DNA of 64,000 bases. Source: Siphonodentalium dalli (Eukaryota > Mollusca > Scaphopoda > Gadilida > Siphonodentaliidae). The notes beneath the pieces were generated by a model, which worked only from the letters and a program-made list of their open reading frames with translations, made no database searches and was not told the origin of the DNA. Location of the stretch: positions 18,788,991 through 18,852,990 of the forward strand of contig CP136061.1 of the NCBI GenBank assembly GCA_032622095.1. The letters are read 5' to 3'. Shown here in pieces: positions 22,162-57,379 of this stretch. Position 1 is the stretch's first letter. Every line of letters begins with the position of its first letter. Made by a program: the position numbers and the translations under genes.

Positions 22162-22342
22162 AGATGGTTTGCGGATCCGACCGACCGCAAATTTTCGTTT
22201 TTCAAAAAAAAACAAAAATTGAAATTTCATGTTATTTTTTTGCCGCCGATCCTTTACAAGCCCACCTGATGACATAAAAATAAAAATATGGATTTCATTG
22301 AGCAACATCGTTGATCGTGATGTCGACGAAAATAGGAAATAT

Positions 22343-24374: not shown

Positions 24375-24409
24375 AACATTCCACCCAGAGCGGAGCATCT
24401 GAGTGGAAT
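24365..24409 (+). promoter_or_regulatory. -1 ribosomal frameshift signal (gag to pol)
   Basis: The heptamer T TTA AAC (24365-24371) stands in gag phase, directly before the gag stop TAA (24372-24374). After a 6-nt spacer a stem forms: 24378-24384 pairs with 24103+300-24409 (ATTCCAC with GTGGAAT, 24403-24409), then a C/A mismatch, then CAGA (24386-24389) with TCTG (24398-24401). The loop is 8 nt. Loop bases GGAGC (24392-24396) could pair with GCTCC at 24443-24447 as a pseudoknot. The pol frame is the -1 frame and is open from this point. Confidence 0.85.
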
Positions 24410-31724: not shown

Positions 31725-32103
31725 ATATAAACTGCATAAATCGTCCGTTTCTGTTATTCCTATTTTTACACTATAGCGACTACCCCTGTTAGAACTTCCG
31801 CTTTTGGTACATAAACATGGCCGCGCCCGCAAAATCGGTCAAACTATATATTTGTGACGTATTCAACAGAAAAGGTGAAACTATGCGATCGTTAAGAACG
31901 TTGTCCAATAATGGAACTGTGGCAGATATATGTCTTCAACATTAGGATGAGGATGTGGCGCTTAGATAGTCTGATGACTACAAACGGGCAACACATATTC
32001 CGGATTGGACTGTACGTGTCAGTTGATGTTCAGGCCGATAACCTTGTGCAGGCTGCTACTCAAAGGGCATTATCCCCGAAACGCCGTGAAAGTCAGGTAC
32101 CAA
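31725..32103 (+). other. short native segment between two large insertions
   Basis: This is the only sequence between the retrotransposon and the CACTA element. It is less AT-rich and holds a 69-codon ATG frame (31911-32120) that runs into the CACTA end, plus another frame starting ATGGCCGCGCCC at 31818 that stops after about 40 codons. AAAGTCAGGTAC at 32090 could be a splice donor. It may be part of a host exon or an older repeat; I recognise no domain. Confidence 0.3.
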
Positions 32104-32770
32104 CACTACTGCATGCATAATCCATTAAAAAAACATCAAAACAGCATCAAAATCTCATTAAATCATTAAAACACACCCTTAATCTTTGTTTTCAACATTT
32201 TAAGGGACAGCATTAAAATAGCATTAAAACAAAAGCAGAAACAAAAATTAATGTAAAAATCCATTAAATTTTAAGGTGAAATCATTAAATAGTCTAAAAA
32301 TATTTCATGCATTAAATTTGATCGCATTAAAAAGCATTAAATTTTGTTCTGACTGTAATAATGCATTAAAACCTCTAACTTTAATGAACTGAAAACAGCA
32401 GCAAACATTGGGTTGGCACTTTTTCTTTTAATTTAATGCCCTTACTTATAAATTTAATGCACTTAATTATAGTTAAGAGCCTTAACTCCAAATTTGGCAA
32501 TTTAGTAGGTAATTTTAATGATACATTAATGAGTCCTATACATACTTAAAATTTTAACAAAGCATGCTGTTCATTAAAACTACATCATTTTTGTACTCAT
32601 TTTGTCTTTTTCAATTTGATGCAATTTTAATGGAATGAAAGAAGCATTAAACAACAATTGATCAAGTTATACAAGTGTACAAACACATTTAATGTGATAA
32701 CCTTAATTCAAGTTAATGGCATCAAACTGCTGTTGCATTAATGTTGTAATTCATTTAATTAATTATAAGT
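32104..32770 (+). repeat. left subterminal array of CATTAAA words
   Basis: I count about 13 CATTAAA and about 6 inverted TTTAATG words, with the first 250 bp almost all CATTAAA. The word first appears about 18 bases inside the end, as it does (CATTAAC) at the other end. In plant CACTA elements such subterminal repeats bind the TnpA protein; here the binding protein is unknown. Confidence 0.8.
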
Positions 32771-34135
32771 TATATAAAAAATTAACACAAATAATTTCTC
32801 ATCACCTATGAGAAATTATTTTTTATATAATTTTTTGGGATAGAAGTATATACGATGTGGGTTTCTTGACTCAGATCTATTAGTTTAGCCCCCTGCATCT
32901 CTCTAAATAATAATCTGGGTTTCCATAAAAAAAAAATTGGCCTCCACGAACAACTTGACTATATATCCTTAAAGGCCCACTTTTAACTCAAACAATTGTA
33001 ATGTCACAGATGTAATATTAGACCGAAATTGTTCCTGTGGATTAAGATTTCCACCCCAATTGGTTTCATCACCCAAAACTCCTAAAATTCCAAAAATTTA
33101 GCGATAATCATATAATATTTTGGTGTTACACCGATTAATTCAAAAGGGATGTGGTTTACGCTCAATTTACTACTAATGGAAAGTAACTCTTTTATTTCTG
33201 GCCATTGTTGAACGGGAAAAGCAGACGTAATATCACTATGTGGGTTTTTTGTTGTAAAGAACATAAATTTCCTTGACATAGTCGTTTATTCTACATCAAT
33301 ATATGAACAAATGTCGCTGTTGCTGGACTTATAATAAGTCGATTTTATCAAAAGTTGTGAGTTAAAATTGTGCCTTTAAGTATACATGTACATGTCCTCT
33401 TATGTACATATATGTAGGCCAGATGCCATCGATGGCAGACATCGAGTGATCATTTGAAGGTGCACCATATGAATAACTAATTGCGAACTTTTCTGGGTGG
33501 TAAAAATGAGTCGGAGAATTGCAAATGCCAACAACTACATGTATAAATGTTACAAAGGAAATTTATGTTCATTTCAACAAAAAACATACTAAACATAGAA
33601 AAACCTGAAATTTGGTCTTCCACTTAATATATAAATAAGCTTGTTTGGTCAATGCATCCACGGGGAAAATGCTTGCATGTTCCCTATTTTCTAATAGTAG
33701 AGATGCTCTATATATTCACTCGCACTCAATGCATATTGTGCTATCGAAACAGGTAGAAATGTTACTTATTAAGTTTTTAAACCTGTTGATAGTAAAACAT
33801 CAGTGAATGTACATGTATATATACAAGTGTCAAGTGAACATGTACAGTACTAGTGTCAGCTGTACTATATATACTGAACTTTATTACACACATATTGCTA
33901 TATTTTGGTCCATTCCGTTACTTTGACCCGTGTGGCAGTTTCACCTGATCGCACTAGTGCTAGCGACCGCGACATAATGACGTCATGCATGACAACCCAA
34001 CTGGGACTACAACTTTACCTCAATGTGTAACATGTTGGTGAGATAACAGATAACTAAATATAACTGGCCTGAAAACCAAACAAACTTGTTCTTTTAGCCA
34101 AAATAATATGAAGTTATATGGTGTGTAATAAATAT
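32771..34135. other. CACTA interior, no firm gene
   Basis: About 32780-32975 is a diverged inverted copy of part of the small element at 49105-49535 (it shares AATAATAATCTGGGTTTCC and CCACGAACAACTTGACTAT). A 65-codon minus frame starts with ATG at 33279 and ends at 33082; it has no known motif but could be a small protein or lost exon. Confidence 0.4.
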
Positions 34136-34278
34136 AGAACCACATGGCAGTCTGTATTCGATGGAATTATCGCACTCAATCGGTTAGCAGAGTGTCAATG
34201 CGTACCTCCACTCGAGGTGTCACTCCGCCAACCGATCTTGTGCGATAATTTCCTCGAATCAAGACACTCAGTGGTTCT
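34136..34278. repeat. foldback inside the CACTA element
   Basis: AGAACCACATGGCAGTCTGT at the left is mirrored by AAGACACTCAGTGGTTCT at the right; inside, GGAATTATCGCAC pairs with GTGCGATAATTTCC and ATCGGTTAGCAGAGTG with CACTCCGCCAACCGAT. Arms are about 55 bp. Confidence 0.65.
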
Positions 34279-34304
34279 ATCTATATACATAGTTTTGCAA
34301 ACTT

Positions 34305-34662
34305 CAGTGACACCCTAAATAATTGACCTCTTAATTAACCATGGCCACTGAACAATATTTTTCAGGATTTAGTCGGATATACGGCCTGTTTCCATTCATT
34401 CGGTTTTTATCATCATTTTATAATAGTGATGTATATAGCGATCTTTAATATATAAAAGGGTTACTTTTTATAAGAAAACAGACATTTATTATGATTTATA
34501 GCGATGTTTAGCCAACACAAGTCCAACCTGGTCATTGATTGGTATCTATATGTCATATTTTTACACACAAAACCACATCCTTTTAAATAAAAAAAATATT
34601 TCGCCTCACGAAGAGCTTCTTGGGCTTTATAATTAAGTGGTTAATTATTTAGGGCATCACTG
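34305..34662. mobile_element. pogo-like MITE, diverged subfamily
   Basis: Left end CAGTGACACCCTAAATAATT, right end AATTATTTAGGGCATCACTG. It retains TTTTCAGGATTTAGTCGGA but the centre differs from the other copies and is longer. It lies just past the 3' end of the transposase gene and shares the CAGTGA-type end with the intronic copy at 37717-37895. Confidence 0.6.
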
Positions 34663-34722
34663 TATACTTATCTCCTCGTATCGGATGAATATACACAGGT
34701 ATTCTCGTAATGTAACAAAATA

Positions 34723-37700
34723 CTACACACAATTGAATGGCGTCAGTCTACTATTCAGAATCCACAATTTATCATCCTCAATCGCACTTAGCAAGGGTCT
34801 TGATAGTTCAGATATTTGTTCGATTGATGTGTGGGTGATGTTTTTTTTACAAAACCAAAGCCCTGTTTCATGTTCAAAGTTAATGTCTTTATACCATTTG
34901 ACCTTTGCAACTATTTCTGTTTCATCAGTACCAGAATTTGAACAATAACAATTGTAAAAACATTGTATATTTCCAAACTGGACAAACTGTCCCGACATTG
35001 TTTTTGTATCTCTTAGTCCCCTATTTTGTAATCGAAATACTACAGAAGAAACAGTTTTGGCATTGGAATGTTCCTTGCTGGCACATCCATAAAGTGTCTC
35101 ACGTCTAGTAGTGACATCAGTAGCAATGTGGTTGAAAGACAACGAATATACACAGTTATCACAGTGGTGGCCAACTACTTTACTAACAGCCATACGCTGA
35201 CTTTTTGTAAGTTCGATCGGTTTGCTGCATTTCATTTTCAAATGACTCTCGGATGAATCTTCATGTTCGTCCATTAGAATCCCTTGATCAGAATTGTTTT
35301 CTAGTTGTGGCATTCTACCACTAGCTTGCATAAACTGGCACCAGTCATAGATAATGAACGTCTCAACTGCACACGCTTCAGGGTGCCTCATATTCAGAGA
35401 TCTCTTGCATATCCATGAATTGAAACGTTCAAATATGTACATCCACGTTGTGTATACTGGACCAAATCGTCGCATTCCATCAACTACATGATGAAGAATA
35501 TGAGTAGTTATATTATGCAGAGATACCGGGAAATTTCTTTCCAATGCTGCGAGCGCTCTGCATATCTGTGCATCTAATTTATCCAGTTCTTCACCATCTT
35601 GACACTCAGCACAAATAGCGGCGAAACAATCAAACAAATTAAATAATGTTTTCCTGTGTTGCTCATCCATTGTGGATCTTAAGCAGTACTTAAGTATTCC
35701 TTGAGTAGCAAGCTGTTTCCAGTCGTGGGATTTCAATGAAGCTGTCTTTGTAATGAAGGGACCTGGTTTAGTGCCGAATCCTGCAGGTGGGCGTATTGAC
35801 ATCGCACGTTCATCAGCCAGTTTTAGTTCAGCTTTTGTTAAGAAATATGGTACCGGTATGTTTATTGACGAGTCCGAAACCTTATTTTCCGGTTTTCTTG
35901 TTTTCTTTCTTTTTTTTGATTTTGATGGTTGAACTGTTGTCTGGTTGTAGTCACTGGACGATTCTGGAATCTCCGGGTTAATGACTTCATCACTATTATC
36001 AGTCACAGAAGGGAGACGACCATAAGCTACTTCAGCTCGGACTATTTTTTCTCTACATGTATTCTTGCCAGTTAAAAGGTTCATAATGTTTTGCACAACA
36101 TCCTTTATTGTGTGCATTGCATCTGGTTGTGTTTCCTCTATTCGATTTAGTCCAGGAAGGGAATTTATAGCCTTTATTCCTTTACAGCCTGTGGATGTTG
36201 CCAATATATTAGCGTTTGTTTTATTCTTGGCATTATCAAATGCTTTTCGATACGCCTGTTCTGAAATAACATCTCTCTGATGTGGCTTATTTGATGTGTC
36301 TGAAGATTTGACAATGAAATTCTCTTGATCATCGCGCATAACATCATCAGGTTCCAAATACGATCTGTTTGACAGATATATAACTTTATCATTATGAGTA
36401 CATTTGAAGCCTTGAACCAGACACCAGTGGCAGCCCATTAAACTGGCAGCTCCATGTTGGCCGAAAAGTTTGCATAGGCCAGGATAGTCGAGCACATAAA
36501 ACAATAGTTTGATTTTCACTGTTACTGGAGCATTTTTATATGCGTCAAATGTTGGACAACCACTGAGAGAGGAAAGCTCATCAACTAATATCTCCACATA
36601 AGGCTCCAATTTCGCTTCAGAATGATCATTACTAGGAATAATTCCTGCCAGTAATATGTTTCCAAAACTATTTCGCATGTGTCGCGGCCAATTCAGCACT
36701 GTGATCATCATCGGTACCATTGAGTAAGACAGACCAATGTTATGAAAAGGATTAACTCCATCCAGTTCTAATGCCAGAGAAAATCCGGAATTGTTACCTT
36801 TGAAATATCCATCCTCAGAATAGATATCCCTCCAAACTGGGGAATCGTGCAAATCCCACATAATGTCTCCAGGTTGTTTATCCCGTGGATGATGTGCCTG
36901 TATAATCTGAGCCAAATTAGTCTCGCCATGAATCCTGGCAAGCCTGGGTCCAATAGGCAAATACGTAAAGTGACGCTTTGAAATTGTTTTTTTCGTACGC
37001 GCACTGGTTTCGTAAAATCTTGGTTCTGCACAAACTGGGCAAACTTTTAAGTCTGCAAATGGTTTATCTGCTGAATTTCTGAATACCACACAGTCATTAC
37101 TGCAAACACTGAACACTTTCTTTTTAAGCAGATATGGCTCTATTAATTTTCGCGCCTCTGTATAACATTTTGGTAGGGATGAATTGTTTTGTAGTTGCCG
37201 TTGTAGTTTGAGGTAATCACTGAACGCGCTTTTGCTAGTTGACGGGTGGCTTGTAAATAAATTGAAATTCAATGCTAACCACTGCAGAAGAGTTATTCCA
37301 GTTCCAGGTAGTTTTGTACAAGCTATTCCTTCAGAATATAAACTTCGGTCATAATCGCATGTCCAAATACTTGTCTGAATATCTTCATCACTGGATGAAG
37401 AAGAACAAGACGCTGGAAAGTCGTCCTCGTCTGAATTACTTGAAATTGATGACTCTTCTGTTATGCCATCACGGTTAGACCATTCCCCATTGTCTGATGA
37501 GTTTTGGGCGTCAACCCTGAAACATTGAATAGGAGAGCATGTATGAATTGATACTGTGTGACATTGAACTAGTACCTATGTTGTGTTCTGAATTTTATAT
37601 ACTATAGCCTAGGTACTCTTACCTGCCTAATAATAGTGATGTCACGATTATTAAATTTGGAGGCAAAATTCCACCCATCACTATTATTAGGCAGGTAAGA

Positions 37701-40607
37701 GTTCTGCAGACTACTACAGGGATGCTCTAAATAATTGACTTCTTAACCACTGAAACATTATTAAATATTGTTCAGGATTTAGTCGGAAATACTGCTTGTT
37801 GGCATTCATCGGAGAAGCAATATTTCCGACTAAATCGTGAAAGGTATTTCATAGTTATTTTGTGGCTAAGAGGTCAATTATTTAGGGCATCACTGTAGTG
37901 TACACAATATTTATTCAAACCTAAATATCCAAATACATCACATGCATGTCTAAATGGAGAGAGATACTAACTACTAAACTAATAGAGAGCTTGAAGAGGA
38001 TTTGGCAGCAAGAGTTTACCCTTTTATTGAGCAATCTCCTTGGAACAAAAGAATGTAAGACATACATGTAGCAGAAGGAGGGAGAAATACTACTGTACCA
38101 CTGTAAGTAATTACATTTGATTATCTGCTAATTATTATATGCATTGAACTTGATTGAAGTGACATTTAATATAAGTTAACAATAACATGATTTTGGAGGG
38201 TGTTACCGATTATTATTACTACCAGAAATTATTAACAGCCATGGCCGCTTATACATGTAGGCTCTTGTGCTGTTAAGAATTTCAGTTGGGCCATTAATAA
38301 ACCACAATGCCCGACAAAGTAATGGTTTGGTCATTTTCTTGTGAAGGCTCACGGAAAGAGTACATATTTTTTAGTACTTTTATATTGCCCTAACTAGTGT
38401 TAATTTGAAAGTTGTTGTTGGTTATGACGCACTTAACGTTTAGTGGTGTCACGAGTAGGAGGAGCTTAAGTAAAACTTAATTTAGGGAATTTTTTTTGGA
38501 AAACAACCCATTTTGAAGACATTATTCATTTTAAATTTACCAACAATAGTTGGTATGAGATCGCCAGAGGCTCACAAAATATCCAACTTCCAACTCATTG
38601 AGATATCTAACATCTCCAAACACACTATGCCAATATCGTATATTTATACCATGATCACATGTTTTACTATGAAATAAAGCCATCTGGATAAATGTTTACT
38701 TTAATCTATAAGGTATGTGACAGTTGCGTTGCGTAAAAATCTAATGTTACTGCAACGGTTGCGTCAACGCATCAGACGCAACGCTGTAGTGTGAACGTCG
38801 CTATGCAATTATCACTAAGCTATAACTGTCGCATCAGACGCGACGCACGCATCACAGTACTTGGTGTGAATGGGGCTTTATGCTGGTGACCCCAACGTCA
38901 CCAACAACGTCGTTTGCCTCATTCAGGAATCACTGTGAATAAATTCTATCAACGAATTACAGCCAATGCATAAACGTGCTGTAAGATATAGTTTGTAATC
39001 ATTGTTTGTTTGGAATAAGCTCTGACAATTAACATCATGGTATAAACAAAATACACACAAAGTGTTTCTCAATAAAAAATTTACTCCACTCGTGGGATTG
39101 ATGATTTACCACACTCGCTAAAGCTTGTGTAGTAAATTGTCAATCCCACTCATGTATTTTATATGTCTCCAACTGATATCCGGCACTTTATAGTGATAGA
39201 AATATTATGTAATTGAGAGCATACCGTGTATTCCGCAAGCTAGCTGAATTTGAACTGCAAATACTTGGGTCATCAATATCATCAATCATTACATCAATGT
39301 CATCATTGCTGACATTAGAACTCTCCGTGCTGTTTGTAGAATCAATTTCTGAAAAAAAATTGGAAATTCAAACATTTTATTCAGAATAGAACACACATAC
39401 GCATTATCACAGAATACTGTGAGTTAGGCCAAACAAAATTATACCTGTGTTTGGGGTCCCACCCTCTCTGAGAATTAGGGTAGGTAGGTAGATTTATTTT
39501 ATTTATTTTTTATTTTTCTGAAATACTATGGACATTGAAAAAAAATTTGATCTCAAAATACTTAGGATGATAAAATTAAATGTGTATCAATGTAAAATTT
39601 ATGTATATAATCCACTATAGTGTCAAAATATATTAATTTTTATAATTTTACTTAACAAAAACTCAATATCTGGGCATAGAGGGGTTAAAAATCTACTGGA
39701 GGCCCAACAAAAAGTTTAGGGTAGGCACCTTTAAGATAGGGTAGGTAGGGAGACCCCAAACACACACATATTTTGTTTTGGCCTTAGTCTAATGTCCAGC
39801 CCTCCAAATGATGGGACTTACCGTTTACAATTTCATTTAAAATCTCTTGTCTATGGGAATCGAGTTTGCAACATGACATAAGTGTAATTCATCCTCAAAT
39901 CCATTTTTTTCATAAGTTACAGTTTAGATTTTAGCAAGGCCACCAGCTTTTTTCAAGACACAAAACCACCGTTATCTAAATTACATGATTTGACGATATT
40001 GGTCACATACATGGAACTAGGAGTAATTTGTGCTAGGCTATATAGCCTATAACGGGACAAACGCGGGACAGATAATTGGGCGATGTGGCCTCCCCAAGAC
40101 TCGGCAAGAGGGCACGACGAACCCTCCGGAACTTCTTCTTCTCTTATAATATAAATGCAAATCCCTTGGTATCAAGATAAAAGTGTTAATTTGAAAACAT
40201 GATTAATGTTTTATTCCACAGGGATTGGGGGAATGAGGGATTTGCAATTGCATTTGACTTGTTTGTAAACATGATCGAACCCTCGCTGGTTAGCTTACTA
40301 TTAAATACGGCCTTGGGTTTTAACGTTTAGTATATCTACCTTCTTCTGGAAACCAATCTTCAGACTCGACTGTAGATGTCTGGTCAACATCAGTGTGACT
40401 GCTAGGCTCAAGTCCCACATCAGAATCTGACTCTTGATAATCGATTTGTGTTCGTGTGCTGTCAGTGTGACGAGTGTCACAGTCGTCCATCGTCTGCATG
40501 CAGTTGCCATATTTTCCGATGTGCTTTCGAATGACACGACTGCTAATTGGTTGTAATCTCCATTTACAAACAGAACAACCACACGGTCTGTGGAGGGTAG
40601 ATGCCAT
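34723..40607 (-). CDS. Tnp2-type CACTA transposase, three exons
   Basis: This protein should cut and rejoin the CACTA ends in the nucleus. Exons: 40607-40340, 39348-39225 and 37516-34723, with GT-AG introns whose phases agree; total 1061 codons, no internal stop. The ATG at 40607 follows an in-frame TAG. Exon 1 encodes a small CxCxxC segment near residues 9-14. In exon 3, residues about 290-293 form a CxxC (KVCPVCAEPR). The Transposase_21-like core has LALELDGVNPF (Asp 383) and PDAMHTIKDVV (Asp 596), and a basic KSKKRKKTRK (663-672) may be a nuclear signal. A DUF4218-like C-terminal region starts near residue 790 (FPVSLHNITTHILHH, then GPVYTTWMYIFERF, then a conserved Glu near 849). The length fits plant Tnp2 proteins. 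Which acidic residues are catalytic is inferred from family layout. Confidence 0.92.
37615..37702. repeat. perfect 27-bp foldback in transposase intron 2
   Basis: Arm 37615-37641 (ACTCTTACCTGCCTAATAAT...) is exactly reversed at 37676-37702. The loop is about 34 bp. Looks like a tiny foldback MITE within the intron. Confidence 0.7.
37717..37895. mobile_element. pogo-like MITE in transposase intron 2
   Basis: Left end CAGGGATGCTCTAAATAATT, right end AATTATTTAGGGCATCACTG. Part of the CAGTGA subfamily with 34305-34662. It does not touch the exons, so splicing of the transposase may be unaffected. Confidence 0.65.
37896..39224. other. rest of transposase intron 2
   Basis: No gene. About 38700-38880 holds repeated CATCAGACGCAACGC / CATCAGACGCGACGC words ending GGTGTGAATGGGGCTTTA, resembling one end of an unknown MITE. 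About 39080-39160 is an imperfect foldback (CACTCGTGGGATTGATGATT with AATTGTCAATCCCACTCATG). Confidence 0.45.
39425..39787. mobile_element. foldback MITE in transposase intron 1
   Basis: GGCCAAACAAAATTATACCT and TGTTTGGGGTCCC at the left are mirrored by GACCCCAAACACACACATAT and TTTTGTTTTGGCC at the right, with TTA on both sides as a possible target duplication. AGGGTAGGTAGG occurs near both inner ends. Confidence 0.6.
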
Positions 40608-41640
40608 CGCTGTTTTGTGACTATTGGGGGCCTAGTCTGACATCAAAATTGAAAAAAATAACGCATTTACCATGTTTACAGAAAACCTGGCTATTGCGCA
40701 TGCGCTTCAATGGGTCATAATAAACATTGGGCGGCCAGTCCGATTATGTAGAGGAAATAAACGGATCATATCTTTCAACAAAACAAGCTTCTAATTACGT
40801 TTTTGTTTATTCGTTTAAACAAAATATTCATAGTACGACAACACCCTGAAAACGTAACCATAATGATTTTAAAGAAATACAAGTACAATACATAAACCAA
40901 TGAGTTTTACATTTCGGACTGAGCGAACACGTTTTAGCACTTTCCATCGTGAGTTACGGTAGACCGAATTTGTAATCCTCTATCAGGGTTGCTGATAAAA
41001 AATGTTCGAATCTTAGTGGATTGCAGCTATCCCAGTCCCTTGTTCATACGTCCTTGGGATAACATGTCGAATATTGGTGGTGAACTAATTTAGTAGAGTC
41101 GCCTGTTTGGCTGCAGACGTTGACTATATGGTTGGTACATGCATTCACAAACCATGGAGTTTGTATGTCAAAACGCGCTTCCATAGTTTTTTTTTTTTTA
41201 CGAAAACACGTGCATTTTATTTTCGCGCGCCTGGCGATCGCAGACGACATCAGATTTGTTATAAATTATAATAGGCCTAATGGACCTAATACGTCGCCTA
41301 AAAGGCGCGGGTGTAACCGCCGGTGGAATTAAGGCATTAGAGGGTAACTTGAACAATTTGATTTTCCGACATGTTTTTTTTTATTGTAACTGTTAGGTCT
41401 ATTTGAGTATTTCTAACAACTTAACAAGATCAGTGACAGTGTTGATGAATCGATAATTCCTAAATTCGAATTTCGTCAATTTTCGATGACTGATGAGCAG
41501 ATGATGACTTATTGACTAGGCCTATTCTGTATTCAGCTAGCCTATTGCCATTGATGATGACTTAGTCAAGGAAAGCTATTCTATTGCCATGGCGCTTTGT
41601 CATGTTCATGATGTTGTCTGGCGTCTGTCTGTTGGTTCCA
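40608..41640. promoter_or_regulatory. intergenic region upstream of the transposase
   Basis: The transposase promoter must lie here, upstream of the ATG at 40607 on the minus strand. I see no clear TATA element. Any 5' exon of the plus-strand gene (45438-47050) could lie between here and 45437; I could not identify it. Confidence 0.35.
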
Positions 41641-42860
41641 GAGACGGTAGGGGGGGGGGGGGGGGTCTCACCCCCCAAACTTTGGTCAAAATTTTCAACA
41701 GTTGGAAATTTCATACCTGCCAATACATTAGTTGGAAATTTCACACCAACAGTATGTTGAAAATGTTCTTGTAGTTTGATTTTCAAACAATTTTTTGGGG
41801 GGAATAAATTGTTTTTGTACCAATATTTGCAAATTTTCTAATTTTTGGTAAAACTTTTGGACTGAAATAGTTATCAGTTGGAAATTTTCCAACCTCAGGG
41901 GGGGTGTCAGGTTGGAAATTTCCAACAGTTGGAAAGCTTGTGTCCTGGTCCCTCCGCCATGGCCAGTCATGAGTCAAAAACTGCTAGTTAATTTAAGGAA
42001 ACAATATTATTATATGACTATCGTTTTTCGTTCCCCAATACCACTATAGTAAAGTGATAATTTCCCGACCATCGGATCAGCAACAGTTTGATCCGATGTC
42101 ATACCACCCTTCTCTATCTCGCATACTGCGCATGACTGGAAAAAGCAGGACAGTTAATTCTTTCTTTATTTTTGATACTAGCGAGCGTGTGCAATTGGTT
42201 TCATTTCATAATTAATGAGAGAAATTGTGCTTTTTAAATAAAAAGCATGTCATATAATAAACCTGTTATCGCTGCAGTGAATTGATCTGGGCTTCGCATC
42301 ACGTCTCGTTGAAGAGGTCAGATCGCTGGATCAAACTCGACGCCTGCGGCGGCTCGTTTAATCCAGCGATCTGACCTCTTCAACTCGACGTGATACTTCG
42401 CCCCAGATCAATTCACTGCAGCGATAACATGTATTTATCATACATTTGGTCAACATTGTCATTGGAATTGTCATCAGTTGTAAATTTTCCAACCTAAGTG
42501 GAGTGTTAGGTTGGAAATTTCCAACTCTACTAGTAGGAGGGCTTGAGGCTAGTCTAGATTCTAGGATTTTGTGATTTTCTTGTTCAGATTACAAAATTTT
42601 CCCACACCGGGCCGACCATTGTGTCTCTGCTGTGGCCAATACAAAAATTCTAATAAGTTTAACAATATTTTACTATATTTGGTCAAATTTGTGGACTGAA
42701 ATGGTCATCAGTTGGAGAATTTTCCAACCTCAGGGGGAGTATGAGGTTTGAAATTTCGAACACTATAGGAAAGCTTAAATTCAGTTGAGGCCAGTCTAGA
42801 TGCTAGGATTTGCGATTTTCTTGTTTCAAATTTCAAAATTTTCTCACACCGGGCCGAACG
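41641..42860 (+). repeat. array of TTGGAAATTTCCAAC-type palindromic repeats
   Basis: Three related monomers (about 41820-41960, 42440-42616, 42660-42860) carry CAGTTGGAAATTTTCCAACC, then a G-run and GGTTGGAAATTTCCAAC, then CTAGTCTAGAT(T/G)CTAGGATTT and CACACCGGGCCGA. A G-run of about 17 stands at 41650. A separate 166-bp foldback interrupts the array at 42264-42429. Confidence 0.65.
42264..42429. repeat. foldback with arms of about 75 bp
   Basis: TGTTATCGCTGCAGTGAATT at the left is the exact complement of AATTCACTGCAGCGATAACA at the right. Inner arms pair too (GTTGAAGAGGTCAGATCGCT with AGCGATCTGACCTCTTCAAC). The loop region is GCCTGCGGCGG. Confidence 0.75.
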
Positions 42861-43139
42861 GCCATGGTAAGCCTGGTGTGTCGTGGTCTGTTGCCCGTAG
42901 CCGTGTGCTTTTGTATGGAGTTAAATATGTAACATATCTGAATGTTCTCATAACGGGAATATATAACCATGGGATATTAGGCCTAAGAGCACTGAAATAC
43001 AAGGGGGGGGGGGTGCAAATGGAATTATGCAAAACTTGTGTTCGGTCTGATTCTGATTCAAGGGGTGGGGGTGCAGTTGGAATTTCCCAAGGTGGACACC
43101 CCCCGAACGGAAACCCTCTAGCCACGTCCCTGGTTGGTT

Positions 43140-43580
43140 CGTACGTCCTAACCTATGGGGCGGGCTACAGCTTATACCGCTTCATCGATCATCATGAAAT
43201 TTTTCATGGAAGATGAGTCATTTTGGGGTCATTCGGCAAAACAAGATGGCCGCCAGATGTCATTTTCGATTTTAATATTGCATCCAATCGCGCGGGATAC
43301 AGTTTGTACCATTTCTCCGATCATGATGAAATTTGTCATGGAAGTTGACATTGACACGTAGATGGGAACGAGTCATTGTGGGGTCATGATTTGGTAAAAC
43401 AAAATGGTCGCCAGATGTCATTTTCGATTTTGATATTTCATGCATTTGAACAGCTATGCTACAGGTCATACTATTTGTCCGATCATCATGATATTTGTCA
43501 TGGAAGTTGACATTGACATGTAGATGGGAACGTGTAATTTTGGGATCGTTCAACTAAACAAAATGGCTGTCGTCAGCCAT
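43140..43580 (+). repeat. tandem repeat, about 3 monomers of 150 bp
   Basis: Monomers share GATCATCATGAAATTT(T/G)TCA, GGAAGTTGACATTGACA, AAACAAGATGGCCGCCAGAT and GTCATTTTCGATTTT. The overlapping frames at 42800-43553 on both strands are repeat translations. Confidence 0.75.
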
Positions 43581-43699
43581 TTTCTTTTTCATTCAGTATA
43601 TCACAATGCAATTACTAATTGGCTGATCATCATGAAAGTAATAATGGCCATTTCTTACATATCATGAAACGAACATTTCACTGGCAACAAATAATTTAA

Positions 43700-44020
43700 A
43701 AAATACACAAGTTAAGCTACTGTGTCATTGACACTTTCATTTAATTTATAAATCAAAATTTAGTTCCTTATTTTTATCCACTATTTAAAGGGGCATTATT
43801 AGTATGATTATGATTATCACTTCGAAAGCAAAACACTTTTTTTCTATATTAAATCGTTCAGTCAATCACTGAATCAGTGGCAAAAAAACAATCAGTTTAA
43901 AACTTTTATTTATATGGTGGGTCGGAGTTTTGTATAATTGCCGACATATGGCCATTTGAACTTTAATGTAGGCCTATTGTAATTGTTTATAAATTAAAAA
44001 TAAGCACTGAGGCTTGGAAC
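43700..44020 (+). repeat. internal CACTA duplication, copy 1
   Basis: CAAGTTAAGCTACTGTGTCATTGACACTTTC and the later CTTCGAAAGCAAAACAC ... AGTGGCAAAAAAACAATCAG ... GTTTTGTATAATTGCCGA blocks recur, in the same orientation but a different order, around 49637-50130. Confidence 0.55.
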
Positions 44021-45437
44021 GTCATTTAAATTATATATAAATTATAATATATCACTCGGACAAAAACATCAGCCGAATTTGGGGCTTACGAGCGAAGCAA
44101 GAGGGAATGAAACAATGCACGAAATTAGGAGACATAATTATGAAACATGTTTAAAGATAATCATTAAAATCAAGTTGTTCGTGGAGGGGTGTGAACAAAA
44201 ATTAAATTTTTTTTTTATAAACTGACGGCTTAAAGAGCTGTATACAAAACTCCGTTGTTCTGGCTAAAGAGCCGTATACGACTTAAAGAGTCGTAAAAAA
44301 GGGACACATGTTTCACTTTCAGAATAATTAGCATGAAATATGTAAATATGTACTACTTTCGATGTGAATGTCTATTTACTATTTTAATTTTATATTTAAA
44401 CATCCAAACACAAACAAAGCATTCAATATTAGTGTGATGCGTGCATGTGAAATGGGTACTAGTAATCAAACAAATACAAGCTGAATCGATAGCATTGGCC
44501 ATTGTCAACAAATAAATCACAATATGGATCGAACTGTGTCTTTAAAATTTACAAACCAGTGCGAAACATGTCAGTATTTGTGTATTATTTAATAAATTAA
44601 TGATTTCTTTAAAAAAGTTCACTTAGTTAAATGTTCATTGATATTTAAAGGAGCTTTATATATATTTATTGTGAGAAAAAAAACAACTATATTTACAGTT
44701 GTGATGTAAACGCTGAAACAGATTCCACATATTTCAGGAACAATTTCTGGCATCTGTGACTAGTTTGCATATCAATCTCCCGTATTATTATTATTGAAAT
44801 ATACTTTACACTCCGCGTTGATATGTGATATAACCATATATGCCTTAGGCTAACCCGACCGACCCTATTTTAAACCGCCGACTCAGCACTTTTTATGCTA
44901 ATAGACCAGCATCCATGGGGGAAAAGATTTCCCTATAACAGCGGTTTCGTCCGCCCTTTTTTTTCTAGAGTTACGCCCCTTTTTGGACTTAGAACATTCA
45001 GTTTTTCTTCTATTTTTCTGGTGTCCGGATGATAACTTGATTTTTGGTTGTTTATTATCAAAACCCGTTTTTTGGGGATTACCTATATCGAAATACAGGT
45101 TAAGGTTGAATTTCGGTTTAATCCGATAATTTTTGCAAGAGTTATGGCCCTTTTTCGACTTAGAAAATTCAGTAAAGAAAAAACGTTCTCTGATTGTACA
45201 GTTGGGGGCGTTATCACCGCCCAGCGGTGCACTTGTTTTATAAGAAATGTGCCAGTTGTGAAATTTGATCGACAATAATTAGATGTAACTAAACATGTCC
45301 TTAAAAGTAAATCTTTTATCTTCTTTTAAGCATTGATACTCTTAATTTTCAGGCTACAACAGACAGTCAGTTATGTTTTAATCTTTAATTACATTCATTA
45401 TTCACAATACTATGAATTTTTTCTTTAATCCTTTCAG
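44021..45437. repeat. CACTA interior upstream of gene 2
   Basis: A piece at about 44171-44215 (GTTGTTCGTGGAGGGGTGTG) matches the ends of the element at 49105-49535. About 44900-45245 is a minus-strand GGGCCATAACTC-family copy. Position 45425-45437 (TTAATCCTTTCAG) is a good splice acceptor for the next exon. No further exon identified. Confidence 0.5.
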
Positions 45438-47050
45438 ATTGTGCCATTACGCCCGAGATCTTCATAAAATTGTCGAAAGCTGATCTAGCGGATATTTTCC
45501 CAGAAGTTTTCATGGACAGGTTTAAGGTCCTACAGATCCAAGAAAAAATGAAGATGGAAAGTGGAACACCAGACGGTCCAGTATATCTACAGGCAGAAGG
45601 TGATCTTGAGGCCTCAACAGAAGAAGATACAGAGCAGTCTGACATGAGCACAGATGAGTATGATGTGGATGTCAGATCACAAAGGCAAAGCCCGTATAGC
45701 GTAGATGAGATGATGTCGAAAAAAGAATTAAGAGGCAGGCCTACCGAAGCGCAGTCATATTTTGCAAATCTTATCAGGGATGGTGCAAAAGCAGCACATA
45801 TATGGAAGAAGGCAGCAAAAGTTGCTGACATATCTCAAGAAAAAAAGACGCTTTTTTTTGAAAATATTTTACGCATATGTCCAGCTTTGTCGAGTCATAG
45901 ATATGCGTTATGGGATAATCTGAAGAAGAGGCTTGGCAACCGAAGGAAATACCGGAATGACAAAGAAATTGGCAAGAGAGGCAAATCTGCACGTACATGT
46001 AGTTCAGAATCTGTAACTTCCCCGTCTTCTGGCAAAAGTCATCAGAAATTTGATTTTGAATGTGGTTCCCTGTTGACCATAAAAAGCCAAACTGGGCTAA
46101 CATTAGGCCAAGGTCTGTTTCTGAGGCAACCGTCTAAAATGTTTGCAGAAATAACATTAAAATCTCTCAAAATAGAGAACATAAGGCCCTGTGATGAGTT
46201 ACCAGTGGCAACTGGGTCAGCAACGCACATTAGTGAACTGAAACCAAAGCAAATCTTTTCATGGAAAGTGTCCAATTTATCAACTGCCAGCAAACCTAAC
46301 ACTACGCTTAAGGCGACTGGTATGATTCGTCAAACAAAACCGTCAACATTGAAGTCCGCAACTGCCAGCAAACCTAACACTACGCCTACGGTGACTGGTA
46401 TGATTCGTCAAACAAAATTGTCAACATGGAAGTCCGCAACTGCCAGCAAACCTAACACTACGCTTAAGGCGACTGGTATGATTCGTCAAACAAAACCGTC
46501 AACATTGAAGTCCGCAACTGCCAGCAAACCTAACACTACGCCTACGACGACTGGTATGATTCGTGAAACAAAACCGTCAACATTGAAGTCCGCAACTGCC
46601 AGCAAACCTAACACTACGCCTATAGCGACTGATATGATTCGTCAAACAAAACCGTCAACATTTAAGTCCGCAACTGCCAGCAAACCATCGACGAGTAGTC
46701 CTGGAAATAACTCCCAAGTCTACATGTATGAGTGGAATGCTGGGAAGGTGTTCCTTGGCATAATGTCTGTGGATGGAAGTAAATGTACAATAACTAACTG
46801 TATTTCACCCATTGGAAGGCTTTCGAAGGATGAGTTTATTCCATGCTGCACAATCATGCAGAGATCTAGAGCATTAAAGTTGAATACTGGGGACGTCCAG
46901 CAAAGTCCAGATTCAAGGTTCTTAATCTGGAGAATTCCCCTGTCAGTTTGTGGTCCATCGGAAGATGGGTTACAGATCCAACTTCATTTGCCACACGAGG
47001 AGTTTGTTGAGCTCGTGTGCCGTCAGTTGTTAGAATACAAGCTTGAGTAA
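45438..47050 (+). CDS. second CACTA gene, last exon; unknown DNA-binding-like protein
   Basis: The frame is open from the acceptor TTTCAG|AT at 45437/45438 to TAA at 47048. The first in-frame ATG is 45512, so either the exon follows upstream coding exons or translation starts there; sequence before it (PEIFIKLSKADLADIFPE) reads as protein, which favours a spliced start. Parts, in order: an acidic Ser/Glu-rich segment; a helical, basic module near 45720-45960 (RPTEAQSYFANLIRDGAKA to RLGNRRKYRNDKE) that looks like a nucleic-acid-binding fold; a Ser/Lys-rich link; five coding repeats of 26 residues; and a well-conserved-looking C-terminal domain (46715-47045). I do not recognise the family. Its place inside the CACTA element suggests a TnpA-like partner of the transposase, by analogy only. 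Confidence 0.7.
46279..46690 (+). repeat. coding 78-bp minisatellite, 5 copies
   Basis: The unit encodes ATASKPNTTPTVTGMIRQTK plus PSTLKS (26 residues). Changes between copies are mostly at codons 10-13 and keep the frame. It links the basic N-terminal module to the C-terminal domain of the second gene. Confidence 0.85.
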
Positions 47051-47454
47051 CATGGTGTGATCATAGATGTTTGCGGCCCTAAACATACATGTACATGTAT
47101 GCATGTTCAACTGAGCCTGAAACATTAGACCATGCATATGATTCCGTCAACCACAATAACTATAAGGCCAATATAACAAAATTACTAGACTATTCCGTCC
47201 CCTCCCGACCCTATTTTGTCCCCGTCCTCAAATGATATTTTGTATGCAAATTTTCTCTCATGCATTTAGATATAATAACAGTAAAAATAACTAGTAATAT
47301 TCTAATAATGAAATCATTTTATCATTCAGATTTGAGCAATTTGAAAACATGTGGTACCGGTATATCATAAGATAGCATATCGGAATTTCAAGAACTTCTT
47401 CCCATGATAATTTGCATTTGGTAGCTATTGAATAAGAAGTATACTTTTCTCGCA
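47051..47454. other. 3' flank of gene 2
   Basis: About 47160-47240 (ATAAGGCCAATATAACAAAA, then CCCCTCCCGACCCTATTTTG) is an inverted relative of 59620-59705. No gene. Confidence 0.4.
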
Positions 47455-48008
47455 CAACCACGGGGGGAGAACTGCGACGTGAGGATCGGTTGCATACCAA
47501 TAAAGAGACGGTGGAATTCCGATAAACGAGACGGCGGCTATTCGATCTGAGACGGTTCATTTTCAGGCATTCAAATGGAATTTCGGTGACCTCTCAGGTT
47601 TCATATCATCATATCGTTATTTAAGTTACTAATATCCATCAAAATCTGGACGCTACGGTGACTAAAATCAAGAGAATAGCCATTTAAAAGTCACTCGACG
47701 GTTCGTTTTCCGATAAAAGACATGCGACGGTTCGTTTTTTATCGGAAAACGAACAGTCGCGTGACTTTTAAATGGCGATTCTATTGGTTTTACTCACTGT
47801 AGCGTCTAGATTGTGATGGATATTAGTAAATAAAATAACGATATGATGATATGAAACCTGATTTGTCACGGCAATTCCGTTTGAATGCCCAAACACGAAG
47901 AAAATCTTGTTTGTCGCCGAAAGTGAACCGTCTCGTTTATCGGATTTCCACAGTCTCTTTATCGGAATGCAACCGATCCTCACGTCGCAGTTCTCCCACC
48001 CGTGACAA
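47455..48008. mobile_element. 554-bp full-length foldback element
   Basis: The left half is complementary to the right half over almost its whole length: GAGAACTGCGACGTGAGGAT (47467) with ATCCTCACGTCGCAGTTCTC (ending about 47995), AGCCATTTAAAAGTCAC with GTGACTTTTAAATGGC near the centre. The centre has repeated CGACGGTTCGTTTTCCGATA words. No coding capacity; a cruciform-capable MITE. Confidence 0.75.
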
Positions 48009-48461
48009 CCTAACTTAAGAAAGAAGATCCTTGATGATAATCTAGTAATTTATTTATAGTGGCCTATGTATTTTGATATCAAGTAGTATCAAAATGTTTT
48101 GCTTTTTAACAAATATTCTAGTCAAGTTAACTGGAGTAAATGTATGGTCATTATGTTTGCTTGCTTAGACCGTTATTTTTCTGCAGTTGATTGTTATTTT
48201 TCTGTATTTTTTCTTGCCTATTTAGACAGTATTAGAAAGTTATTTCTGTACTTTTAGCTAAACTTAACTGTAAAGTTTGATGAATTCGAAGTTGAGCTGA
48301 ACATTACACTTTCGATTTGTAGTAAATACTATGTCGGTAATAGTATGGAAGTTGAAATTTTCTTTGGCATACTAGTAGTCTAATACCTAGGGTTGAACAA
48401 ATGAGTGTACAGGTAAACAGAGGTGGGTTTTTTTTGGCCTAACGTAATGGTAATTCAGAAC

Positions 48462-48606
48462 GATTACACCATCACATCTATTTCCGCACCCGCAGGACAT
48501 CATAATTGACTCATAAAGTAGTTATTGAAATTTGACCTCCAACTACGTAATACACGTAAATGTTCGGGAGGTGCGGATACGGAAATAGATTTGATGGTGC
48601 ATTCAT
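48462..48606. repeat. imperfect foldback
   Basis: ACACCATCACATCTATTTCC is mirrored by GGAAATAGATTTGATGGTGC; the inner arms (GCACCCGC / GGTGCGGA) also pair. Arms of about 45 bp. Confidence 0.55.
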
Positions 48607-48706
48607 TCTGATATATTATTCACGTTAGTACATGTATAACGTTGGATTAACTTTGACTGCGTGGGGGATATACCAGTGTGTTGTTGCATTTGTTCGTTTT
48701 AACTTT

Positions 48707-48841
48707 TAAGAAATGAATGTCATGTGGAATGTTGTAATCGGGATATGACAGTCAGATCAGTGTCACATGTACATTAACGTTGTGACACTAATCTGATTGT
48801 CATATCCCGATAACAACATTCCACATGACATTCATTTCTTA
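48707..48841. repeat. foldback with arms of about 60 bp
   Basis: TAAGAAATGAATGTCATGTG pairs with CACATGACATTCATTTCTTA, and inward AATCGGGATATGACAGTCAG pairs with CTGATTGTCATATCCCGAT. Only a 10-15 bp loop remains. Confidence 0.7.
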
Positions 48842-49104
48842 TATTTAAATACTTTGTATAAAATGAGGCTTTGAAATATATTTTAATTGTACTTATAAAT
48901 GCATGCTCGGCTATTCCATCAAGATCTATTCCCATCAACAAGTCATCGCCATCACTTAAGTCAGATATGTTAAGTTCGAAGCTCATTTTGTGACTTTCCG
49001 ATATGCCCTATCGCGACATTCGGTTCAATTATAAGGGAAATATTAGCTATACAACGTAATACTATGGGATTTATTCTCATTACTCAGCAGGTATTCACAT
49101 GTGC

Positions 49105-49535
49105 TTAAAGATAGTCAACTTGTTCGTGGCCATTTTAATGAAACCCAAATTATTATTCGGACAGTTGTAGGGGACTAAAATATTAGATTTGAGACGAGAA
49201 ACCCCATTAGAATATGCTTCAATCACCATATATCACAAAATAATATATATAATTTTTATCAAATTTCATTTCTCGACGCCTTCGAGAAATTAATACTAAG
49301 TCGGGTAACTCTATTTTGCCGCATTGGCACTACGTTAATTTGAATGAAACTGCCAATTATTCGCCACTTTTGATGTCTATAAAATGCTGTTTTCTTCCAT
49401 TTACAAACTCCTACCAATTCAATACAGGACATGGAATATTATTGATAAATCACACACTGGGGTATCCAGTTATATATTTTTAATTTAAAAAAAATTTTGT
49501 TCACCCCCCTCCACGAACAAGTTGACTATCTTTAA
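49105..49535. mobile_element. small TIR element with 25-bp perfect ends
   Basis: TTAAAGATAGTCAACTTGTT at 49105 (continuing CGTGG) is exactly inverted at 49511-49535. TGC flanks both ends (49102-49104, 49536-49538). A diverged inverted part-copy is at about 32780-32975 and an end fragment at 44171. No coding capacity. Confidence 0.65.
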
Positions 49536-49636
49536 TGCGTATGTGATAATATGGCCACCTTTAATAATTATGCCCACACAATTGGTCTATAGATTTATTG
49601 GGATAATAGACAACCAGTGTTATATCAATGTTCTCA

Positions 49637-50130
49637 TTTAAAGGGACATTATATCTTCGAAAGCAAAAAAATATTTTATAAATAAATCGCTCAGTGGCAA
49701 AAACAATCAGGTTTATATATACGGTTTTGTATAATTACCGAAATATGATCGTTTTAGTGTTTTATCGAAATGAAGAAAAAAATGAGCACCATATTGCTTT
49801 CGAACATATGATGTCAATTTAAAACACACTAGATGTGTCACGTTACTTACTCACTGAAGCATAAAATTATTAAAGGCCCGCAACTACTTGGGAGTCACAA
49901 AGACAAAACAAATTTTTTTAAATGTGGTTTTGTGTGTAAATATATGTGGGAAGACTTCTAAATGCCCATCAATTATCTGATAGGACTCATGTTGCCTAAA
50001 CTTCACTAAAATCGTAATAAATGTCTCGTCAAAAGCTTAAAAAGCTTATATCTATTGAATCCGCCATTCTACGCAGTCACATTCATCATTGTCAAGTTGA
50101 GCTGCAGTATCATTGATACTTTCATTACTA
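49637..50130 (+). repeat. internal CACTA duplication, copy 2
   Basis: Shares CTTCGAAAGCAAAAAAAT, CAGTGGCAAAAACAATCAG, GGTTTTGTATAATTACCGA and, near 50092, CAAGTTGAGCTGCAGTATCA with 43700-44020. Confidence 0.5.
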
Positions 50131-50250
50131 TTCTCAATAATGGTTGTTTATGCCTATTTGGGGGCTTCCTCTGTCCAATGATACACAATGCATAGACAAT
50201 AAATGTGAAAATTCTGACCTCCCGAAGTAGTTGTGTGCCTTCAACTACAA

Positions 50251-50536
50251 ATCACCCAATAATTCGGCCCGATGAAACTGCAGGAGGTATTTCACATTGT
50301 ATCGCCAAAAATAGATATCCACAAACGTTTGTAAGCCATTGTAGCATATAACACTGAACATGTAAATGTCATTCAGATATAATTTTGAAAACCGTGGGTG
50401 CCTGTGGTTATTCAGATTGACAGCTTTTATTTCAAATCCGCCCAATGGCTTAACGTTTGTGGATATCTATTTTTGGCGATAAAACATAAAATACCTCCTG
50501 CAGTTTCATCAGGCCGATATGCAATTACTGGGTGAT
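50251..50536. repeat. foldback with arms of about 85 bp
   Basis: ATCACCCAATAATTCGGCCC with the mirrored GGGTGAT end; inner arms ACTGCAGGAGGTATTT / ATACCTCCTGCAGT and CCAAAAATAGATATCCACAA / TTGTGGATATCTATTTTTGG pair well. Confidence 0.7.
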
Positions 50537-50789
50537 AACACCAGCGTGTCACGTAATTGGCGGCCAATCATAAACCCGGATTTAGGGTAACACACACAGG
50601 GTATGTAAATATTTTATTATGAGCACTTATGAGCATGTTTCTTATTTTCACTGTGGTTCATTGTTAAGTTACAATTAATAAATAATGTTTCATAAATCCT
50701 GTTTTTGAATGATGTGACATCGACCTGGCCATGATCAGGTAACCAGATACATACTATATATTCGTAATATTACATATATACTACTAATA

Positions 50790-51260
50790 GCTCACCTGAG
50801 ACAAAGTCTCAAGTGAACTATACCCACCACTGTTTGTCTGTGCATGCATGAAGATTCCTGGGGTGACCGAGACAAGGGTTCACATTTGATCATTAGGGCT
50901 CCGTCCATGATCAGATAGGTGTCAGTGGTCAAGATCAAATATATTGATTCTGGTAACATTTTCTAACACCCTCTTCTCCAAAACCATTCAACCCATTTGA
51001 CTGACATTTGGTGTGGGGGTTCATTGAGTGATCAGGGTTGACATTTGTTCATTAAGAGCTGGCTCTATAAATTAGGGGCCAGGAGTCAAGGATAACTCCA
51101 TTTCGTCAATATTTCTAAAAACTTCTCTACTGATCATGAAATTAAAAGTTATTTAGTTGAAATCTGGTGTGAAATTTCCCTTGGTGATATCTGTTTGTTC
51201 ATTAGGTACCGACTCGTCAATTAGGGGTCAGGGTTCAAGAACTTATTAGAACCAGTCTCC
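50790..51260 (+). repeat. CTCACCTGAG-type dispersed repeat
   Basis: Starts AGCTCACCTGAGACAAAGTC followed by the near-complement TCTCAAGTGAACTATACCC. Diverged monomers with CATTTG(A/T)TCATTA(G/A)G follow. This head is very common in mollusc repeats as far as I know. Confidence 0.55.
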
Positions 51261-51329
51261 TACTTAATTATATTATAACAGGTAATCATGCGCACTCAAA
51301 TAGTCCCTGGACTATCTTGTTACTATATA

Positions 51330-51916
51330 TAGCTCTCCTGTAGTTTCCATTAAAGTACCATTAATTTTCTACATTTCTTTTAAGGACATTATAATGCCAT
51401 TAAACCCCTTCACAAGCCCATTAGTTTTAAGTTCCTTAACATTGGATCAAACATATTTAATGCCATTAAACACCTAGCCCAAGCCCGGTAATTTTTTAAG
51501 AGCCTTATTTTTCAGTATGTGCATTAAATACTTATTTAATGACATTAAACATATTTCATTAACTGTTTAATGCCTGTTTAATGGGAAGTTAATGGCATTG
51601 AAAAAGCATTAATTATAGAGTGATTCATTAATAATATTATTGATGCTATTTTAATGCATCATTAAAATATCTAGTTGAATTTAATGCTGTTAATATAATC
51701 TTAATTAATAGCATTAAACGAGGGAGAACAGGTTAACTATTTTAATGCATGTTTCATTGTTTTTAATGGGTCCTTAAACAGTACCTGGTTAATGGGTTTT
51801 TTTAATAGTTTTTTAAAGGTTTTTTAAGTGAAATTTTATGACCCTTTAATGGAATTTTAAGGACTAATGTTTGATGGTGTTTTAATTGGGTGTTAATGTA
51901 TAAACCTGCAGTAGTG
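51330..51916 (+). repeat. right subterminal array of TTTAATG words
   Basis: I count about 9 TTTAATG and 7 CATTAAA words. Near the end nearly all read TTTAATG, so they face the end in the same sense as in the left array. TAAGAGCCTTA occurs in both arrays. Confidence 0.8.
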
Positions 51917-51919
51917 CAA

Positions 51920-53055
51920 GAAGAGGAAGATTTAAATGAACTAATAAAAAATAATCAACATTTTAATAATATTGTCTCAATTGAATATTAATAATACTAT
52001 CAATACAGGTAGTTCAATACCCACACACGGACCATCTCTACCACACGACCTGCAGTTTAAAATATGGTGCATATGTCTGACATCTGTGAATTCTCTGTAT
52101 TCAAGGATTCCAAGCCAATATTTGTCCTATCACATAGCAATATATTAGAATTATCTATAATTCCTTAGTATAAATAAAATAGTGTTGGAAAAAAAAAACA
52201 TGTTTTCAGACTGTTTGTGTATTTATTTTCCCAACCATGTTTTTTTTTTCCCCGTCCGACCGACCCACTATTCTGGGAAAAAAATCCGCAAACCATCTTA
52301 TCAAAAAAAAAAGGCCAAAGCAATATACCACAAACCCATATGCATTTACTAATGACATCTTCATCTGAGTAAAACTGACTGAACTCAAAATGATATGCAC
52401 CAATAAATGCATTATTATGATGGCCTTTGGGTTGCGCCCTTGGCAATATTAGATTGCATGTGGCAATTGAAGCTGCATTACTTTATTTAACATACCCTGG
52501 AGATAAAATCAGAAGCAATATATGTATATCAGCAAACAATACATGGAGATTTACAAAGCTGAACTTAAATCATTTGAAAATTCCTTAAGATTTTCATATT
52601 ATATCAGATGAACATTACTGCTTTGATTATGAAGTACCCTAATTAAATTAAATCTGAATTATCAGTTTCACCACCATTGGATAGGGGAACTGAATTTCAA
52701 TTGTTCAATGTTCAGCAATGGAGAAAATACCCATTAACACTCTTTCAGCCATATTCACCTAGTAGGCGAGTCTATACAGGGACATGGTTAGAGGGGATAG
52801 AAAAACAGAACAAAAACAATAATTTTCATACTAAAATATTGGTTGTTATTTCAAACTATTTCAACGAACGATTGGTCTAAACTTTCCTCTTAACTTTTCA
52901 CTGAAATTTGTTACAAATTTAGCCAAACAATAGCCAGGGTATCTGTGGTTGTTGCTCTGACAGACAGGATCATCTTATACAATTGATGACTGGTAACAAA
53001 AAACTCAAATAGCAAAACCTACATTGTTTATGGAATGTATTTTTTAATGGGTACA
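51920..53055. repeat. mostly unassigned; dispersed module with a 61-bp-satellite unit
   Basis: At about 52240-52350 CCCCGTCCGACCGACCCA and ATCCGCAAACCATCTT are followed by AAGCAATATACCACAAACCC and ATATGCATTTAC. The second part equals half of the 61-bp unit at 21260-22161, and the first part is the inverse of GATGGTTTGCGGATCCGACC at 22164. No gene seen; frames at 52165-52446 read this module. Confidence 0.5.
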
Positions 53056-57101: not shown

Positions 57102-57379
57102 CTCAATGGGGCATCCATTGTTTGCCCTGTTGGAACAAAATTTGGGTATTTACTATCTATTTGTCGGTAGAATATAGAGTCATCAGCAAAGAGTCTTGAA
57201 CTGTCTTACATCTGATTTAACTTCTTTGGAAAGCTCATTTACAAGGCAGAAGTATAGAAGCAGTACAGTATCTGTATTTGGTAGCGCCCGATCCTCTCCA
57301 CTAACTCTGCTAGTTGGACTATTACATTTCAGCAGTAATAGTAGCTCATGTATTGTCTTCCAGGCTGTTCCAATCCAAG

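Follow-up and report, generated by a model that had tools for sequence, protein, structure and literature searches.

A large CACTA/EnSpm-type transposon with a separate second gene beside its transposase gene in the scaphopod Siphonodentalium dalli

CACTA elements are best known from plants, and their mechanism is likewise known mainly from there. In maize En/Spm, a single gene yields both the transposase and an end-binding protein by splicing, and the end-binding protein, TNPA, binds the subterminal repeats and draws the ends together for the transposase. Here, we describe a locus in the genome of the scaphopod Siphonodentalium dalli, within a stretch of 64,000 nucleotides (contig CP136061.1, positions 18,788,991 to 18,852,990 of the forward strand; hereafter the window). 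Positions 32104-51916 of the window are almost certainly an autonomous-looking CACTA/EnSpm cut-and-paste DNA transposon, which carries a second gene in addition to that of its transposase.

Maize En/Spm and other plant CACTA elements, including the 20.5-kb soybean element Tgmt* (PMC2613891), share with this locus the CACTA ends, the 3-bp target duplication, the subterminal arrays, the Transposase_21 (tnp2) domain and two protein products, and Tgmt* also falls in the same size class. The two products of En/Spm and Tgmt* are reported to arise by alternative splicing of one gene, whereas here they are encoded by two separate genes. The present locus further differs in its animal host, in a gene pair that is divergent in two families and on the same strand in a third, and in that no sequence link between the second protein and TNPA turned up in the searches made.

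Transposase_21 elements of animals have been in print since 2006 (PMC1636069), and 8.2% of a clam genome was annotated as CACTA (PMC11373642). SmTRC1 and other animal and fungal TRC elements resemble the present element in Transposase_21, in animal hosts and in the report of more than one product; however, they have CCC ends, 2-bp duplications and lengths of about 4.5, 5.2 and 9.2 kb in three cases (PMC1636069), whereas the elements described here end in CACTA, have 3-bp duplications and measure 19.8-32.4 kb. Fungal EnSpm elements with a TET/JBP gene (PMC12730594) belong to the same superfamily (CAC..GTG ends, 3-bp duplications) and also carry an extra gene, but that gene encodes a dioxygenase with a proposed role in escape from methylation, whereas the protein found here is unnamed and has no enzyme match. 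The bivalve relatives of the transposase, such as P0009 of Mizuhopecten and P0012 of Argopecten, are 46% identical over 94-96% of the query and have the same Pfam pair, but each is known as a single uncharacterized protein.

A preliminary sequence-only reading had called the element unusual. Neither kingdom nor size alone is new, because of the reports above (PMC1636069, PMC11373642, PMC2613891), and that claim is only partly right; what is new is the conserved second gene. Against what could be searched of the literature (titles and starts of abstracts), the separate partner gene and a size of 20-32 kb in an animal are new. The entries listed there describe no CACTA element of an animal in which a separate gene of SAM or BEN type serves as partner, and no paper joining CACTA with the sterile alpha motif was found; Repbase reports and subscription journals lie outside this material and may hold the same gene.

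Boundaries and transposase of the element

The 10-mer CACTACTGCA starts at position 32104, its reverse complement finishes at position 51916, and the trinucleotide CAA lies outside each end of the 19.8-kb element. Each 10-mer occurs once on its strand of the window, and the terminal match is limited to these 10 bp, beyond which the left and right ends diverge. As a chance control, exact inverted 10-mer pairs were counted throughout the window. In 10,211 of them the two members lie more than 5 kb from each other; 113 of these pairs have equal 3-bp flanks, and 2 of the 113 begin with CAC. Two exact inverted pairs more than 1 kb apart start with CACTA, and the 3-bp flank repeat was detected only at the 32104/51916 pair. 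Counted on both strands, the word CATTAA is present in 25 copies in the outermost 700 bp on the left (mean 1.8 and maximum 8 in 1000 dinucleotide shuffles) and in 23 copies in those on the right (mean 1.4, maximum 7), with 14 occurrences within 33200-51000 and 64 in the window outside 32000-52000.

The transposase gene lies on the minus strand and is predicted to consist of three exons with AG/GT borders and fitting phases, which join into one open frame of 1061 amino acids. The frame at 37516-34723 matched Pfam families Transposase_21 (E 7e-26) and DUF4218 (E 1e-11). For EnSpm-type transposases, and also for Mirage, Chapaev and Transib, a C(2)C / H(3-4)H layout has been described that is placed between the second D and the last E (PMC12730594). 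The presumed catalytic residues D383, D474, C493xxC496, H803xxxH807 and E827 agree with it. Both D and both C residues are kept in 29 of 29 aligned rows, and the E in all 21 rows with a residue there, the other 8 being gapped. The complete element that the sequence-only reading had described, with inverted ends, flanking CAA, matching subterminal arrays and an intact Tnp2-type transposase as independent signals of its boundaries, was thereby confirmed signal by signal, and the copies described below bear it out.

The transposase search yielded 28 relatives among 8000 candidates scored. Seven of them carry an organism name and are 44-52% identical, namely those of Mizuhopecten, Argopecten (2), Solemya, Ylistrum, Mya and a bacterial bin, Candidatus Thiodiazotropha, whose relative we take to be host DNA. 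Six of the seven are bivalve proteins, which lends indirect support at most to the earlier impression of a bivalve-like sequence. No relative was detected in the viral contig collection, either with the single sequence or with a profile, or with the profile among the genome contigs of the bacterial collection.

Since Transposase_21 is common to both groups and TRC elements are filed in the CACTA superfamily (PMC1636069), the element could alternatively be a member of the animal TRC group of Schistosoma and not CACTA proper. The ends of TRC elements are CCC and their duplications are 2 bp long (PMC1636069; for Hydra, PMC4298943), and neither feature is present in the window element or in its sister family C (see below), which makes this assignment very improbable. 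The features of CACTA/EnSpm elements were found instead: CACTA terminal inverted repeats, a 3-bp duplication, a DDE transposase of the Transposase_21 type, subterminal arrays in both orientations at both ends, and copies with unrelated flanks (in the window family, family A, as judged by the left end, and in family C).

Further copies and sister families

The host genome assembly comprises 2.23 Gb, and match counts in it are lower bounds. The left 700 bp of the element gave at least 29 matches: besides the window itself, there is one on C8, another chromosome, with 100% identity, one on C3 with 94%, and 26 that are weaker. Five weaker loci that were excised (L004-L008) all begin exactly with CACTACTGCATGCATA and have the different flanks CAT, CCA, ATA, ATA and TGA. 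The C8 copy (C8:188652499-188671052) is colinear with window positions 32104-50722, from which it differs at 32 of 18,526 aligned positions and by 17 gaps (99.19% identity by BLAST with gaps counted), and its transposase frame is intact. It halts at a run of 100 N, 1.2 kb short of the right end, and this assembly gap is why its right end cannot be read. The 2 kb beyond the left ends of the C8 and C3 copies showed no similarity to the left flank in the window at E <= 1e-3, and the two are therefore separate insertions. The element therefore has recent copies.

The 17 gaps that set the C8 copy apart from the window are all confined to 40295-46266, and the outer 8.2 kb and 4.5 kb are gap-free. 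Short inverted-repeat units resembling miniature inverted-repeat transposable elements are nested in the element at 34301-34664, 37713-37899, 47556-47899, 48696-48852 and 49105-49535; they travel with it, because the colinear C8 copy spans them too. Beyond the gap, on C8 below 188652400 (L040-L041), CATTAA words recur every ~1499 bases in a tandem array, which by eye seems to contain a tRNA-like gene.

Family C comprises 12 transposase loci at 49% identity, and its second protein is 31-32% identical to that of the window. A complete copy at C1:6345434-6376863 is 31,430 bp long and flanked left and right by ATA, and each of its ends has a CATTAA array, judged here without a shuffle control. Eight further copies read at both ends have CACTACTGCA at both and measure 31,740-32,365 bp. 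An exact 3-bp duplication was found in five of these nine copies (ATA, TTA, TAA, TAA and GAT), and equal 3-bp flanks would be expected by chance in about 0.02 per copy (hand arithmetic at 36% G+C). One end of a tenth copy, at C3:271.4 Mb, was read; its second end was looked for and not found. In a comparison of the 3.7 kb that surround the second gene, the C1 copy is separated from three copies by one mismatch and one gap and from six others by 5-9 mismatches.

The transposase-side end of family C, searched as a 34-base pattern with up to 3 mismatches allowed, gave at least 51 matches (0 with the reversed control); 12 of the 13 exact matches adjoin a family-C transposase. The 38 matches with 1-3 mismatches comprise many further ends, most of which carry a ..ATCTCATT variant, and by eye they adjoin no listed transposase. 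They may be non-autonomous relatives that the same transposase mobilizes.

In family B, the transposase is 55-57% and the second protein 36% identical to those of the window, and four gene pairs were found with 16,575-16,579 bp between the matches. The ends of this family were not found, as the 40 kb around the C2 copy contain no CACTACTGCA. This copy (C2:156962187-156971013) has the second gene, a YEW exon and a stretch matching transposase exon 1, all on one strand, and no catalytic exon was found in the same 40 kb.

The second gene and its pairing with the transposase

The large frames of the window element lie on opposite strands and face apart, as had been read from the sequence alone, with predicted start codons at 40607 (minus) and 41280 (plus) separated by 672 bp. 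The ratio of observed to expected CpG is 1.31 in this intergenic stretch, compared with 0.78 for the whole element, and the stretch is presumed to be a shared promoter region; we infer splicing and expression of both genes. The second gene, on the plus strand, has two predicted exons and a joined protein of 558 amino acids with a pI of 9.5. Its first exon was chosen by eye among five donor-site candidates, because the peptide lines up with the N-terminus of P0031. A tblastn search upstream of exon 2 with the P0031 N-terminus gave no match.

The whole second protein as query retrieved nothing at E <= 0.001 among 7,996 candidates scored, probably because the search words landed in its repeats. 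With residues 9-290 as query, three relatives were obtained from 1,696 candidates. P0030 has the full layout of the second protein (SAM-like part, RGxPTEAQ...NRRKY domain, tandem repeats and YEW part), P0029 stops inside the repeats, and P0031 of Mizuhopecten aligned in the SAM-like and RGxPTEAQ...NRRKY parts only. The Pfam searches assigned no family, and a profile of the protein had no relative in the viral contig collection. Sequence searches against solved structures returned no meaningful match, and neither of two models had a Foldseek match at E <= 0.001; a structural search produced one BEN-domain row, which was absent when the search was repeated.

The second protein had at least 45 matches in the genome (62 candidates scored) and the transposase at least 50 (49 of 105 candidates scored). 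For the pairing test, 32 second-gene loci were compared with 34 transposase loci, after 13 and 16 rows, respectively, had been dropped as pieces of counted loci. At 19 of the 32 second-gene loci, compared with 0.03 expected, a transposase is found no more than 30 kb away, and the pair is divergent at 15 of these and on the same strand at 4. The second gene stands beside the transposase in three families, and its frames are open in families B and C. The coordinates of the features are collected in Table 1.

Table 1. Features of the element at 32104-51916 and its flanks (window coordinates)
Feature	Position	Strand	Basis
Target-site duplication CAA, left copy	32101..32103	.	sequence read
Left terminal inverted repeat CACTACTGCA	32104..32113	+	sequence; C8 and C3 copies with other flanks confirm boundary
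Left subterminal array CATTAA(A), both orientations, 25 copies	32104..32803	.	word count and shuffle control
Transposase exon 3, with Transposase_21, DUF4218 and all presumed catalytic residues	34723..37516	-	Pfam, exon joining
Transposase exon 2, acidic linker, predicted	39225..39348	-	AG/GT borders, fitting phases
Transposase exon 1, CxCxxC motif	40340..40607	-	matched by P0014, P0012, P0026, P0028; best E 4e-5
Stretch between start codons, 672 bp, presumed shared promoter region	40608..41279	.	CpG observed/expected 1.31; promoter role inferred
Second gene exon 1, predicted, 64 bases, start of SAM-like part	41280..41343	+	by-eye alignment with P0031
Second gene exon 2, with remainder of SAM-like part, conserved RGxPTEAQ...NRRKY domain, tandem repeats and C-terminal YEW part	45438..47050	+	
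78-bp tandem repeat within second gene, 5.2 copies, 26 residues per unit	46281..46686	+	
Right subterminal array CATTAA(A), 23 copies	51217..51916	.	word count and shuffle control
Right terminal inverted repeat CACTACTGCA	51907..51916	-	sequence read
Target-site duplication CAA, right copy	51917..51919	.	sequence read

Elsewhere in the window, a Ty3/gypsy-type retrotransposon lies at 23292-28669 (plus strand), with gag-like, protease and RT/RNaseH/integrase frames. Tandem repeats at 21227-22277 (open in three frames) and 57183-57961 (open in two) form long open reading frames that are probably meaningless.

Proposed mechanism and weighing of the readings

Taken as a whole, the locus is best explained, with good confidence, as a CACTA/EnSpm transposon with a TNPA-like partner gene. 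The 1061-amino acid DDE transposase would cut at the CACTACTGCA ends, and insertion at a staggered cut followed by fill-in would leave the 3-bp target duplication. The second protein, of 558 predicted residues, may bind the CATTAA(A) arrays that lie within each end and join the ends for the transposase. By analogy with TNPA of maize En/Spm, this role as a partner that binds the arrays and brings the ends together is somewhat favored, and it is by this comparison that we infer DNA binding and a part in synapsis.

A number of observations weigh against this explanation, and the first group concerns the boundaries. When the assembly was searched with both 700-bp ends, as the sequence-only reading had proposed, the left end recovered other copies with different flanks, the right 700 bp matched the window alone, and no second locus with both family-A ends was found. 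Two candidate right ends tried for the weaker relatives L004 and L005 showed no duplication. The right end without a second copy and the lack of another locus with both ends would suit a composite, in which each end stems from an insertion of its own and the 19.8 kb result from their chance pairing. However, the two ends share the 10-mer, the 3-bp flank and the subterminal word. Starting at the left end, the C8 copy stays colinear up to 50722, where its gap opens 1.2 kb before the right end, and in sister family C both ends carry this 10-mer and enclose divergent genes; the composite is thus extremely improbable.

Four of the nine family-C copies, full-length and with intact CACTA ends, have no target duplication (C3:459920-491706, C2:230262293-230294032, C4:160946867-160979147 and C5:191026867-191059190), and the first three of these are the copies closest to that at C1:6345434-6376863. 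Their lack of a duplication may reflect assembly mis-joins between near-identical copies, ectopic recombination or a true lack. The divergent order of the two genes is not fixed, because the family-B genes share one strand.

The remaining points concern the second gene. Thirteen of the 32 second-gene loci have no transposase within 30 kb among the matches listed, 15 of the 34 transposase loci have no second gene among the matches listed (8 of the 34 are only 27-31% identical), and in the C8 copy the second-gene frame is broken by a 2-bp deletion. The sequence of the second protein offers no support for DNA binding, as no Pfam family was assigned and the one structural hint was not repeated. 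The unpaired second-gene loci and the broken frame would also be expected if the second gene of a CACTA element were a captured host gene or passenger without a part in transposition, and P0031 of Mizuhopecten, which has no YEW part in the alignment, may be such a host gene. The gene nevertheless adjoins the transposase in three families, in which the transposases are 49-55% identical to that of the window, with open frames in B and C, and P0030, from another source, has the same layout. A passenger is not expected to be kept in a pair across such divergence, and this alternative is therefore unlikely.

A transposon with a putative partner gene remains the preferred reading. A further, tentative proposal is that a giant animal CACTA lineage built its own TNPA counterpart from unrelated parts, in which the SAM-like part would self-associate and the BEN-like central domain would read CATTAA(A), with the gene order flipped between sister families. 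If this is true, the two-protein recognition of ends seen in En/Spm arose here from unrelated protein parts. As a naturally separated two-component system, the element leaves the role of the partner protein open to direct test, and near-identical copies of these 20-32-kb elements, whose recent spread is datable, lie on several chromosomes.

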